From a virus: a stretch of 21,205 bases of DNA. Within the stretch, counting starts at the first letter, position 1; each line of letters begins with the position of its first letter. Shown here one piece after another: positions 1,069 to 21,205 of this stretch. The DNA is taken from positions 1 to 21,205 of IMG/VR virus record IMGVR_UViG_3300009155_000322, one strand, 5' to 3'. Below the pieces are notes generated by a model, which saw only the letters and a list, made by a program, of their open reading frames with translations, ran no database searches and was not told the origin of the DNA. Both the position numbers and the translations under genes were made by a program.

Positions 1069-3375
1069 ATGGCAGAGAAATTAGTATCACCGGGCGTATT
1101 CACAAGAGAAAACGACCTTTCATTTTTACAACAAGGTGTAGGTGAAATAGGTGCAGCATTCATTGGTCCTTTTAAAGAAGGTCCTTTAACCCCAACAATC
1201 GTAAATTCACAAGCAGAATTTGAAACATTGTTTGGTTCAGTAGATGACACGTATTACACACCTTTAGCAGTGCAATCATATTTAAGAGAAGCAGGAACTG
1301 CAACAATTTGTAGAGTAGCTGGTAAATTGGGATATATAGAAACCGGCTCTATAATGTTAATCGCATCTAGTGGTTCATTATCGGCATCTTTGGGTGTTTT
1401 ATTTAATACAACCTCAAGTGTACAAGTAGGATTTTCTGATGTTACTGCAAGTGCATTAGGAAGTGGAGATATTGGATTATCTGGAAGTTTATTTGGAGTA
1501 TACACTACATCATTGGATTTAAGTGATTCAAATGATATAGAAGCTACATTTGGTGCATCTGCATATGGTACTAAAAAAGGGTACGCATATATGTATTTTA
1601 AAAATAATGCATTTGTAGCTAATACAAGTACATATTCATTATCGGGAGCAGATGGATTAGGAACGGGCTCATTTACAGCATCATTTAATGCAAATGTGAG
1701 TGCAAGTGCAATTGTTTTAGGAGAACAAAGATTTAATAGTGAAGCATGTGAAGCATTGACTCCATATATTCAATCTCAATTAATTAGTGGACAAAGATAT
1801 AACCTTTTCCAATTTGAAACAATTACTGCAGGAAATGTAGCAAATACAAAAATTAAAGTTGGTATTTCAAATGTTAAAGCAGCGGGTTCAATTAACGGAA
1901 CAGATTTCGGTGCATTTACAGTCGTAGTAAGAAGTTTCTCTGATACTGATAAGAAAAAAACTATAATTGAAACATTTGCAAACGTAAATTTAGACCCTAA
2001 TTCTCCAAACTATATTAGTAGAGTAATTGGTGATAGAAAAAGAACAATCAACGCAACAACTGGTAAAATTACAGAAATTGGAGATTGGGTTAATAATTCA
2101 AAATATATTAGAATTACAAACTTAAACGAACAAGCACCAGTTCAAGCAGTACCATTTGCACACGCAGCATACAAATTACCAATAAGAGCAGCAGGACAAT
2201 CGGAAGCAGTAACTGCAACAACTTACGCAAATTTGGTTCCAAGAGTAACATTCTCAACGGGTTCAGTAACGGATTCTACAAAATATAGTGGTATTGATTT
2301 AGACAACAATGAAGATAACAAAATCTATATGAAACCAATTCCAGCATCTGCAGGTAATGGTTCAAATGCAGTATTCTCATTAGATACTATTTGCGGATTA
2401 AGTTTAACTTCAAATGTATCAACTGATGTTTCAAAAAGACAATTTGTTGTAGCATTCCAAGAAGGATTTGACGGGTTTGCACCAAACAATAATGCAGCGG
2501 ATTTAGACCCAGCTACAACAGCAGGTAAGGCGGCATATCAAAAACATATTGCAGCATTATCAAACGCTGATGAATATGATATCAATATGGTAATTGCACC
2601 GCATGTTAATAGAGCTGACCATAGTTCAGTTTGGACTTCAATATTAGATATGGTTGAACAAAGAGCAGATGCATTCTTCATTGGAGATGCAGGTAACTCA
2701 ACAACATCATTATCAGCAACTATTACACAAGCACAAGGAGTTGATTCAAACTACGCAGCAGTTTACTATCCTTGGATTAAAACAATTGATTTAAACACAA
2801 ACAAATTAATAACAGTCCCACCATCAGTATTATTACCTGGAGTATTTGCGGCAAACGACAATGTTGCAGGAGAATGGTTCGCACCAGCAGGTTTGAATAG
2901 AGGTGGATTAGTAGGAGCAGTTAGTGTATTAGATAGATTATCTCAATCTGAAAAAGATGATTTATATGAAGGTAAAGTAAATCCAATTGTACAATTCCCA
3001 GGACAAGGTATTGTGGTATTTGGACAAAAAACATTACAAGATAAACCATCTGCATTAGATAGAATCAACGTAAGAAGATTATTATTGACTGTTAGAAAGT
3101 ACATCGCATCTACATCAAGATATTTAGTATTCGAACAAAATTCAGCAGAAACTAGAACTAAATTCTTAAACATTGTAAACCCTTATTTAAGTGGAATACA
3201 AAGTAGACAAGGTTTATACGCTTTCAAAGTAATTATGGACGATTCAAACAACACACCAGATGTAATTGATAGAAACATTTTAAAAGGAGCTATCTACTTA
3301 CAACCAACAAAGACAGCGGAATTTATTCAAATTGATTTCAACATCTTACCAACTGGCGCAAGTTTTAACGGATAA
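1069..3375 (+). CDS. Contractile tail sheath protein (gp18-like)
   Basis: This 768-residue protein has the hallmarks of myovirus tail sheath subunits. The N-terminus (KLVSPGVFTRENDLS) carries the SPGVFTrE.D signature. It is followed by GEIGAAFIGPFKEGP and a NSQAEFETLFG segment. The C-terminal domain has INVRRLLLTVRKYI and ends with AEFIQIDFNILPTGASF, typical of the conserved sheath core. Sheath subunits polymerise around the tail tube and contract to drive it through the host envelope. It is longer than T4 gp18 (659 residues), probably because of insertions in the variable middle region (about residues 90-330). The ATG is preceded by an A/T-rich leader without a Shine-Dalgarno. The tube gene follows, as in T4. 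Confidence 0.95.
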   Translation: MAEKLVSPGVFTRENDLSFLQQGVGEIGAAFIGPFKEGPLTPTIVNSQAEFETLFGSVDDTYYTPLAVQSYLREAGTATICRVAGKLGYIETGSIMLIASSGSLSASLGVLFNTTSSVQVGFSDVTASALGSGDIGLSGSLFGVYTTSLDLSDSNDIEATFGASAYGTKKGYAYMYFKNNAFVANTSTYSLSGADGLGTGSFTASFNANVSASAIVLGEQRFNSEACEALTPYIQSQLISGQRYNLFQFETITAGNVANTKIKVGISNVKAAGSINGTDFGAFTVVVRSFSDTDKKKTIIETFANVNLDPNSPNYISRVIGDRKRTINATTGKITEIGDWVNNSKYIRITNLNEQAPVQAVPFAHAAYKLPIRAAGQSEAVTATTYANLVPRVTFSTGSVTDSTKYSGIDLDNNEDNKIYMKPIPASAGNGSNAVFSLDTICGLSLTSNVSTDVSKRQFVVAFQEGFDGFAPNNNAADLDPATTAGKAAYQKHIAALSNADEYDINMVIAPHVNRADHSSVWTSILDMVEQRADAFFIGDAGNSTTSLSATITQAQGVDSNYAAVYYPWIKTIDLNTNKLITVPPSVLLPGVFAANDNVAGEWFAPAGLNRGGLVGAVSVLDRLSQSEKDDLYEGKVNPIVQFPGQGIVVFGQKTLQDKPSALDRINVRRLLLTVRKYIASTSRYLVFEQNSAETRTKFLNIVNPYLSGIQSRQGLYAFKVIMDDSNNTPDVIDRNILKGAIYLQPTKTAEFIQIDFNILPTGASFNG

Positions 3376-14236: not shown

Positions 14237-15508
14237 ATGAATCTAATAGAAGATAAACATACCCTATTTTCTTTTTTAGGGGGTAATGTAAATATTGACC
14301 TTATTATTCCAGTATGGAGCTCACATAGAGCACATCCGTTTGGTACTCGTTTGTCCTTTATATATTTTAGGCATGTAAATGGTGATGATGGTATAATAAA
14401 TTTAAATCATATAGATGCTAAAAAATTAAATGAATTTGATATATCGAAAATAATTCATTCAAATACATTAGTTTTAGGTAATAGGTATTTAAACACAATA
14501 GGATTGGATTATGAGTGGGCACATTTTGAAGAGTATGGTAAACCATTTATCTTTAATGAGTTCGTTGCTGGGGTTTATAGAGGGTATAGAAACGACTTTA
14601 AAGAGTTGAATGATTGTGTACCTTTAATGAAGTGGTATGAAATCTTAAAGACAATCCCAAACATCAGTAATACGGATGAATCGTATCGTAAATATACAAA
14701 CGCAATCAATACTTTGGGAAAACTAGAAGGGGCTGGGGTAAAAGTCGATAGAGAAAAATTTATTGATAGTTTTAGCTTTGACGAGAAATACATCAAAAAA
14801 AATGATATTGTTTACACACAATACAACCCATATACAATAACAGGTAGACCATCTAACAGACATCTTAATGTGAACTACTCTGCTCTTAACAAATCGGATG
14901 GTAGTAGAGAATGTTTTGTTAGTAGACATCCAAATGGTACTTTATTACAATTTGATTTTGAGTCATACCACGTTCGTTTAATTGGAGGATTAGTTGGCTA
15001 TAAATTTCCAACGGATATTTCGGCACACCAACACCTTGCTCAATATTATGGATTACCAACGGAAGAAGCGAAACTATTGACATTCCGTTATCTATATGGT
15101 GGTTTGGATGAAATGGCGAGAGAGATTCCATTTTTTAAAAAGGTTGAGGAATATATAACATCTCAATATAATAGATTCGTTATAAATGGGTATTTGGAAA
15201 CTCCCTTATACAAACGAAAAATTAACTTTGATAGAATTGAATCTCCAACCGAACAAAAAGTATTCTCTTACTTATTACAAGCAATAGAGACTGAAGTGAA
15301 TTACATCAAAATTAGAGAGGTATTGGAAGTATTGAGTAGTAAGATGAGTAAAATGATTTTGTATACCTATGATGCGTTTCTTATTGATACACACCCAATT
15401 GAAAGAGATGAGATTTTAAAATCCGTAAACGACATTATGGAGTTGGGTGGATTTCCGGTACGAATAGAAGAAGGAGAGAATTATAACAATTTAAAGGTTA
15501 TAAGTTAA
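14237..15508 (+). CDS. Compact family-A DNA polymerase-like protein
   Basis: In 423 residues, the C-terminal part (about 195-423) carries the Pol I polymerase motifs in order. YTITGRPSNRHLNVNY (199-214) matches TxTGRLSSxxPNLQN. FDFESYHVRL (239-248) is motif A, with Asp240. AKLLTFRYLYGG (278-289) is motif B, with Lys279, Phe283 and Tyr287. NGYLETPLYKRK (318-329) matches the GYVxTxxGRRR strand, and YTYDAFLID (376-384) is motif C, with Asp379. The catalytic Asp pair is therefore present, but motif C has YDA instead of HDE, and the Arg before motif B is Thr. The fingers are very short. No clear 3'-5' or 5'-3' exonuclease motif is seen in residues 1-190. It may be a repair or specialised polymerase rather than the replicase. 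Polymerase activity is inferred. Confidence 0.8.
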   Translation: MNLIEDKHTLFSFLGGNVNIDLIIPVWSSHRAHPFGTRLSFIYFRHVNGDDGIINLNHIDAKKLNEFDISKIIHSNTLVLGNRYLNTIGLDYEWAHFEEYGKPFIFNEFVAGVYRGYRNDFKELNDCVPLMKWYEILKTIPNISNTDESYRKYTNAINTLGKLEGAGVKVDREKFIDSFSFDEKYIKKNDIVYTQYNPYTITGRPSNRHLNVNYSALNKSDGSRECFVSRHPNGTLLQFDFESYHVRLIGGLVGYKFPTDISAHQHLAQYYGLPTEEAKLLTFRYLYGGLDEMAREIPFFKKVEEYITSQYNRFVINGYLETPLYKRKINFDRIESPTEQKVFSYLLQAIETEVNYIKIREVLEVLSSKMSKMILYTYDAFLIDTHPIERDEILKSVNDIMELGGFPVRIEEGENYNNLKVIS

Positions 15509-20555: not shown

Positions 20556-20587
20556 TTTGGAAAAGTGGAAAAATAGTTGTATATTTA
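20556..20587 (+). promoter_or_regulatory. Bacteroidetes-type promoter for gp32 gene
   Basis: TTTG (20556-20559), 20 nt, then TATATTTA (20580-20587), matching the -33/-7 pattern except for the last base. TATTTATA also occurs at 20582-20589, so the phage late-type motif overlaps the -7 box. The AGTTGTATATTTA sequence matches 13420-13432. Unlike the three leaderless promoters, this one is about 100 nt before its gene start, leaving a long leader. Confidence 0.6.
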
Positions 20588-20617
20588 TAGTAATAAAAGA
20601 TGAAAAAGTTATATTTA

Positions 20618-20680
20618 GATATAGGAATATCGTGATATAAACCTCAACTTTAAAAACAAATTTTAAACCTTAAAAACAAA
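20618..20680 (+). promoter_or_regulatory. Candidate autoregulatory operator in gp32 mRNA leader
   Basis: A GATAT/ATATC hairpin (20618-20622 and 20627-20631) has loop AGGA; the loop AGG can pair with CCT at 20642-20644, giving a small H-type pseudoknot. Downstream are three TTAAA repeats (20650-20654, 20663-20667, 20670-20674) and the 10-nt repeat TAAAAACAAA (20651 and 20671). T4 gp32 represses its own translation by nucleating on a 5' pseudoknot and binding cooperatively along unstructured UUAAA repeats. The layout here is similar; only the repeats are strong. Confidence 0.5.
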
Positions 20681-20686
20681 AAAACA

Positions 20687-21205
20687 ATGGACATTTCATT
20701 GGCATTAAAGAGATTTAGCTCTTTACAAAACAACACTAAAAAGTCGGATTCAATCTACAAACCGGCTAACGGAAAATCTCAAGTGAGAATCGTTCCTTAC
20801 AAGTTCAACAAAGACATTCCTTTCATTGAACTTTACTTTCACTACAACATTAACAACAAAACTTATTTGAGTCCTATGTCATTTGGTAGACCTGACCCTA
20901 TCGTTGAGTTTGCAGAAAAACTTAAAAGAACAGGTGATACCGATGATTGGAAAGCAGGTAAGAAAATGGAACCAAAGTTAAGAACTTTTGTACCAGTTAT
21001 AGTAAGAGGTAAAGAATCGGAAGGAGTAAAATTCTGGGGATTCGGTAAGACAGTTTATCAAGATATTTTAGGATATATTGCAGACCCTGATTACGGAGAT
21101 ATTACAGACCCAAACACAGGTAGAGATATCGTATTGGAAGTAATGTCAGCAGAAGAGTCTAACGCATCTTATCCAACAACAACAATCAGAGTTAAACCTG
21201 CAACA
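20687..21205 (+). CDS. gp32-like single-stranded DNA-binding protein (3' partial)
   Basis: The first 173 residues are visible, and the gene runs off the window. The start MDISLALKRFSSLQN has a KRFSS stretch (8-12) like the LAST motif of T4 gp32 that mediates cooperative binding. SQVRIVPYK and the core IELYFHYNINNKTYLSP follow. A later KFWGFGKTVYQDIL matches the conserved gp32 OB-fold strand (FkyrFGKkiwd in T4). gp32 coats ssDNA in replication, recombination and repair and autoregulates its synthesis. T4 gp32 binds zinc through one His and three Cys; no Cys is present in the visible region, so the zinc site seems lost. The ATG has an A-rich upstream with no Shine-Dalgarno. Confidence 0.88.
   Translation, partial: MDISLALKRFSSLQNNTKKSDSIYKPANGKSQVRIVPYKFNKDIPFIELYFHYNINNKTYLSPMSFGRPDPIVEFAEKLKRTGDTDDWKAGKKMEPKLRTFVPVIVRGKESEGVKFWGFGKTVYQDILGYIADPDYGDITDPNTGRDIVLEVMSAEESNASYPTTTIRVKPAT

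Follow-up and report, generated by a model that had tools for sequence, protein, structure and literature searches.

The closest described system is the operator of gene 32 in T4, T2 and RB69 (PMC535899, PMC3014915). In T4, a pseudoknot nucleates gp32, which coats a UUAAA/UAAA stretch and in that way blocks the ribosome-binding site, and both parts are essential (PMC535899, PMC3014915). A review describes the gene 32 pseudoknot as perhaps the only viral pseudoknot in translational autoregulation, reports that RB49 has no conserved pseudoknot and calls for study in diverse T4-related phages (PMC3014915). Two other systems share traits with the locus described here. The gene 43 (DNA polymerase) operator of T4 and RB69 (PMC3014915) is likewise a plain leader hairpin without a pseudoknot by which a phage replication protein is self-controlled, but it concerns another protein, has a conserved loop sequence and no UUAAA array has been described for it. 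The STAXI motif (PMC2864571) also involves pseudoknots near genes for single-stranded-DNA-binding proteins; however, STAXI is tandemly repeated and occurs close to DNA-handling genes of several kinds, whereas the element reported here is single and lies strictly upstream of gp32. In the literature searched, which comprised open-licence papers, we found no gp32 operators outside the relatives of T4.

Here, we analyzed a virus record of 21,205 bases (referred to as the window, i.e. the whole stretch of DNA) that contains T4-like tail genes and ends within a gene for a gp32-family protein. The ORF starting at 20687 matches the Pfam gp32 family (E=7.6e-13) and a PHROG of ssDNA-binding proteins (E=1.3e-13). 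A full-length homologue of 282 aa, taken from the relative L006, has an acidic tail, and this tail is conserved in gp32 of these phages (e.g. DDVAAAFDDLFN), which is compatible with a T4-type regulated SSB. Based on the promoter type and a Flavobacterium phage relative with 41% identity, we infer Bacteroidota-type hosts. The features to which we refer are:

1069-3375: match to a tail sheath PHROG profile
20556-20587, plus strand: putative host-type (Bacteroidota) promoter, with TTTG at 20556-20559, N20 and TATATTTA at 20580-20587
20609-20615, plus strand: 5' arm of the outer helix P1, pairing with 20634-20640 in the minimum free energy (MFE) fold
20610-20617, plus strand: second promoter-like box, TATATTTA, overlapping the hairpin base and kept in nearly all related leaders
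20618-20631, plus strand: hairpin S1 of the MFE fold (GAUAU, AGGA loop, AUAUC), with compensatory arm changes in the clade
20634-20640, plus strand: 3' arm of P1 in the MFE fold
20642-20644, plus strand: CCU element, invariant in the clade and at the same position as the loop-pairing segment of sister clades
20648-20686, plus strand: G-free UUAAA array, with UUAAA at 20650, 20663 and 20670, extending into the start region
20687-21205, plus strand: gene for the gp32-family ssDNA-binding protein, with ATG at 20687, truncated by the record end

The leader resembles the T4/T2/RB69 operator in that it precedes the same gene, of the gp32 family, and in that its 5' part is folded and the rest, which reaches into the start region, is A+U-rich and unstructured and contains several UUAA(A). 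There are also differences. The T4 pseudoknot lies about 67 nt before the start, whereas the clade of the window has a nested AU-rich hairpin with a loop pairing of 3 bp at best; the T4 operator overlaps a Shine-Dalgarno sequence, whereas the window leader lacks one, yet its array still reaches the start region. The two folds have no recognisable sequence homology. Two promoter-like boxes, recognised by their sequence, may parallel the middle and late promoters of T4 gene 32. We suggest that, as in T4 gene 32, whose layout it shares, the gp32 leader probably serves as an operator for autogenous control of translation.

The original prediction had described a GATAT/ATATC hairpin with an AGG loop, a downstream CCT, three UUAAA repeats and a 20-nt direct repeat in this leader, and all of these elements are present. 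Direct reading of the sequence places GATAT at 20618-20622, AGGA at 20623-20626 and ATATC at 20627-20631, i.e. 56-69 nt upstream of the gp32 start; in the MFE fold, S1 is the tip of a longer helix (20609-20615 with 20634-20640), which in most clade members is lengthened to AAGGUU/AACCUU. The direct repeat is a near-repeat with a period of 20 (CTTTAAAAACAAA at 20648-20660 and CCTTAAAAACAAA at 20668-20680). There is no evident Shine-Dalgarno sequence before the gp32 ATG, and 20648-20686 contains zero G. The 34-nt hairpin has a folding energy of -6.2 kcal/mol (z -2.6), the leader as a whole folds with a z of about 0 to -1.7, and three UUAAA in 45 nt have a P of 0.037 (dinucleotide shuffle). In the window alone, the elements are thus marginally above chance, and they are clearly non-chance only through relatives. 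A search against Rfam 15 gave no family at the gathering score in the window, and none at E up to 10 in the leader.

Six protein-guided scans of viral contigs yielded several hundred loci for gp32, whose leaders comprise about 190 distinct sequences and were sorted into clades on this basis; apart from two distant cultured phages, all relatives come from metagenomes. The most distant clades aside, nearly all leaders share the same order: a TATATTTATA-like box, a hairpin at a distance of 0-15 nt, a short element containing C (ACCU, ACCA, AUCU, ACUU or ACUG), a UUAAA-rich stretch and the ATG. Compensatory changes, whose absence the original prediction had named as a refutation, are abundant, and the prediction is thus not refuted in this respect. 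In sister clades with an (A)GGA loop, 29 double-changed cells were found compared to 8.2 after shuffling (33 distinct cores), with slid controls far lower, and arm pairs include GGUGU/ACACC, GGUGA/UCACC, CGAGU/ACUCG, AGUGG/CCACU and GCAUGU/GCAUGU. For the window clade, per-sequence folds were used in place of the MAFFT alignment (A2), in which the hairpin's 3' arm is misplaced; here, GAUAU/AUAUC, GAUAUA/UAUAUC, CUAUAU/AUAUAG, GUAAUA/UAUUGC and UAGUUAU/GUAGCUA interchange, and 52 of 55 arm positions are paired where 27 are expected if arms are swapped between types. These patterns indicate that the hairpin is a real RNA structure that is maintained by compensatory changes in the window clade and, very strongly, in the sister clades. 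The covariance model of the sister clades did not match S1 when run on the window, indicating that the hairpin fold is without sequence homology between clades. The hairpin is lost in one subgroup (L150, L152, L154, L156 and L162), and neither the GG-loop nor the UUAAA array is clearly seen in the distant cultured relatives Flavobacterium phage immuto and Mel-JY01. A group of distant leaders (L332, L335-L347 and L354-L362) without the GG-loop has inverted repeats of other kinds close to the presumed start, e.g. UGACCUGAUAACAGUUAUCAGUUCA, which are perhaps further unrelated folds.

The proposal that the loop pairs with a downstream element fared differently in different clades. Pairs of loop and downstream element that change together between clades are GG/CC, AG/CU, ACAG(U)/(A)CUGU, AAGUUU/AAACUU and GAGUUU/AAACUU, and when the downstream elements are permuted among the loops, P is 0.0019 for all clades and 0.007 without the window clade. 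L193 is predicted to form an H-type pseudoknot with an S1 of 6 bp, a 1-nt loop, an S2 of 5 bp and a 7-nt loop (P=0.0017); L165 and L169 would have a pseudoknot of 9 bp with G-U (P=0.014), and the distant clade of L366 and L381 would combine an S1 of up to 9 bp with a 6-bp S2, UUGACC/GGUCAA (P=0.0003-0.006). The same routine recovers the published T4 helix with P=0.001, and the T4 pseudoknot is similar in size to those of some sister clades such as L193. H-type pseudoknots of 4-9 bp are therefore supported by sequence in clades E, L165, L193 and the L366/L381 group. For the phage of the window, in contrast, the proposed AGG/CCU pseudoknot is not supported: the pairing is no better than after shuffling of loop and tail (P=0.28), chance alone is expected to yield a match of 3 bp, and because AGG and CCU are invariant in the window clade the permutation test is uninformative there (P=0.80). 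Moreover, in most clade members the MFE fold pairs CCUU with an upstream AAGG, giving one long hairpin. In the window itself the outer helix is shorter than in relatives and the CC is unpaired, so that a pseudoknot would be possible; CCU may pair with the loop AGG or, as in relatives, with the upstream AAGG.

The UUAAA array is the second element common to the leaders. Per 45 nt, gp32 leaders contain 2.27 UUAAA compared to 0.39 in other intergenic leaders of the same contigs, 0.53 in other leaders of at least 80% A+T and 1.05 in shuffled gp32 leaders, i.e. UUAAA is 4-6 times commoner in gp32 leaders than in the remaining leaders of these contigs. In the window clade there are 3.4 UUAAA per leader, every leader has at least two and G falls to 1.5%. 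In 86 non-redundant leaders, the distance between adjacent UUAAA is 6-8 nt in 63% of cases compared to 17% after shuffling, and exactly 7 nt in 39% compared to 6%; given the shared ancestry of the leaders, these percentages do not represent independent counts. The spacings in the window itself are 13 and 7. The dominant 7-nt spacing equals the published site size of T4 gp32, which occludes 7 nt per monomer (PMC5892887, PMC10484735). However, in the leader sequence of T4 itself UUAAA recurs at 5-nt intervals, and the phasing of about 7 nt across this family thus belongs to these phages and not to T4.

Two boxes suggest early/middle and late transcription of gp32. Of the 102 leaders in the window clade and the L077 clade, 92 contain the host-type pattern TTTG-N-TAnnTTT[GA]. 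The box at 20610-20617 resembles a box of the structural region, [TG]ATATTTAT, that precedes the starts of five ORFs by 22-46 nt (at 1023, 3387, 5049, 8272 and 15514) and occurs only once on the opposite strand (5779). We suggest that the structural-region box is likely a late promoter of this phage group and that the box at 20610-20617 is possibly a late promoter as well. A late start some 6 nt past the second box would, in this clade, lie inside the hairpin, and the two messages may therefore fold differently. A terminator-like hairpin with a U-run between the two boxes of some sister clades (e.g. L070) was considered and discarded; it was not reported by the terminator scan.

Combining conservation, covariation and specificity for gp32, the T4-like operator layout that had been proposed for this leader is well supported at the level of sequence. 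As the same two-part layout is kept by selection at the same gene, the same logic as in T4 is the best explanation, and we infer gp32 binding, nucleation at the fold, cooperativity on the leader RNA and translational repression as follows: (i) the short 5' fold, an AGG-loop hairpin here and a pseudoknot in several sister clades, would mark the gp32 mRNA, (ii) gp32 in excess of available single-stranded DNA would nucleate at this fold, (iii) gp32 would spread cooperatively over the G-free UUAAA array with roughly one monomer per 7-nt repeat, and (iv) gp32 would thereby cover the start region and block ribosomes. Bacteroidota have no Shine-Dalgarno sequences, and initiation relies on low structure and an A-rich upstream sequence (PMC6847099). 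As the leader, too, lacks a Shine-Dalgarno sequence, the gp32 coat would cover the A-rich initiation region itself.

A more far-reaching scenario, which we regard as conceivable and somewhat doubtful, is that these leaders represent a widespread gp32 operator family in which the nucleating fold is freely rebuilt in evolution (nested hairpin, GG-loop hairpin with a short pseudoknot, or long H-type pseudoknot) and the readout is a 7-nt-phased UUAAA ruler with one repeat per gp32 monomer. In this scenario, the upstream-promoter and late messages of the window clade would fold differently and so respond differently to gp32.

Alternatively, the fold could be a stability or processing element of an mRNA that is abundant, or be recognised by a different RNA-binding protein of phage or host, with UUAAA merely keeping a start without a Shine-Dalgarno sequence open. 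In many clades the fold indeed lies near the presumed late transcript start, like 5' stabilising hairpins, and an open, A-rich start is what Bacteroidota initiation needs (PMC6847099). We consider this unlikely given the distribution of the motif, which was not observed at any further gene of these contigs or, among the matches listed, outside gp32 leaders. Viral contigs were searched with a sister-clade DNA pattern consisting only of the loop and the downstream AAWAAAACC, requiring neither a stem nor gp32; among the 80 matches listed, 60 have a closing stem of 4 bp or more, and every one of these is located 31-76 nt upstream of gp32, and the remaining 20 have stems of 0-1 bp and gp32 in none (0/20). 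Similarly, a covariance model gave a single strong match per contig in ten relatives, and the match in G001 is the gp32 leader by coordinates; a second R1 match in this 289-kb relative (G001:19894-19947, E=0.005) is weak and chance-like on reading. Moreover, other A+T-rich leaders lack a comparable density of UUAAA, and openness alone leaves the 7-nt phasing unexplained.

It is also improbable, and more so, that conservation in the window clade acts at the level of DNA, with the late box and an 8-12 bp palindrome (e.g. ATATCGCGATAT, AAGTAGCTACTT) serving a transcription regulator and the RNA hairpin as a by-product. The 5' side of the hairpin overlaps the box, and most clade members have a perfect palindrome of 8-12 bp just past it with several different centres (TCGA, CGCG, CATG, TGCA and AGCT). 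The window, however, is an exception, with ATATCGTGATAT at 20627-20638 and no perfect palindrome; the hairpin arms compensate independently of the palindrome, sister clades without it have a clear co-varying hairpin, and the UUAAA array would be unexplained. Finally, the leader could be ordinary A+T-rich sequence that regulates nothing and in which hairpin, CCT and UUAAA coincide by chance. This would fit elements that are each near chance in the window alone, but the covariation, the specificity for gp32 and the enriched and phased UUAAA of the relatives largely refute it, and we regard it as highly improbable.

Returning to the T4-like autogenous operator, this layout was apparently previously undescribed in the large phage group studied here, which is uncultured and has Bacteroidota-type promoters. 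The many leaders provide natural variation: the fold is conserved and compensating, pseudoknots take several geometries, UUAAA is phased and the promoters look Bacteroidota-like. This makes it testable how gp32 distinguishes its own mRNA from other single strands, i.e. by the fold, the repeat spacing or both.

Outside the leader, two ORFs of the window deserve mention. By eye, the opening segment of the first (2-250) resembles the terminal part of an intein/Hint domain (...GTISHN) and precedes a LamG-like region. A 423-aa ORF (14237-15508) matches DNA polymerase A profiles by its C-terminal part only and may be a partial or split polymerase gene adjoining structural genes. In Acinetobacter phage Ac42 (L528), a T4-type late promoter, TATAAATA, before gp32 at 592 is directly followed by a UGUCA-GAAA-UGACA hairpin, an order of box and hairpin that parallels the order described here.
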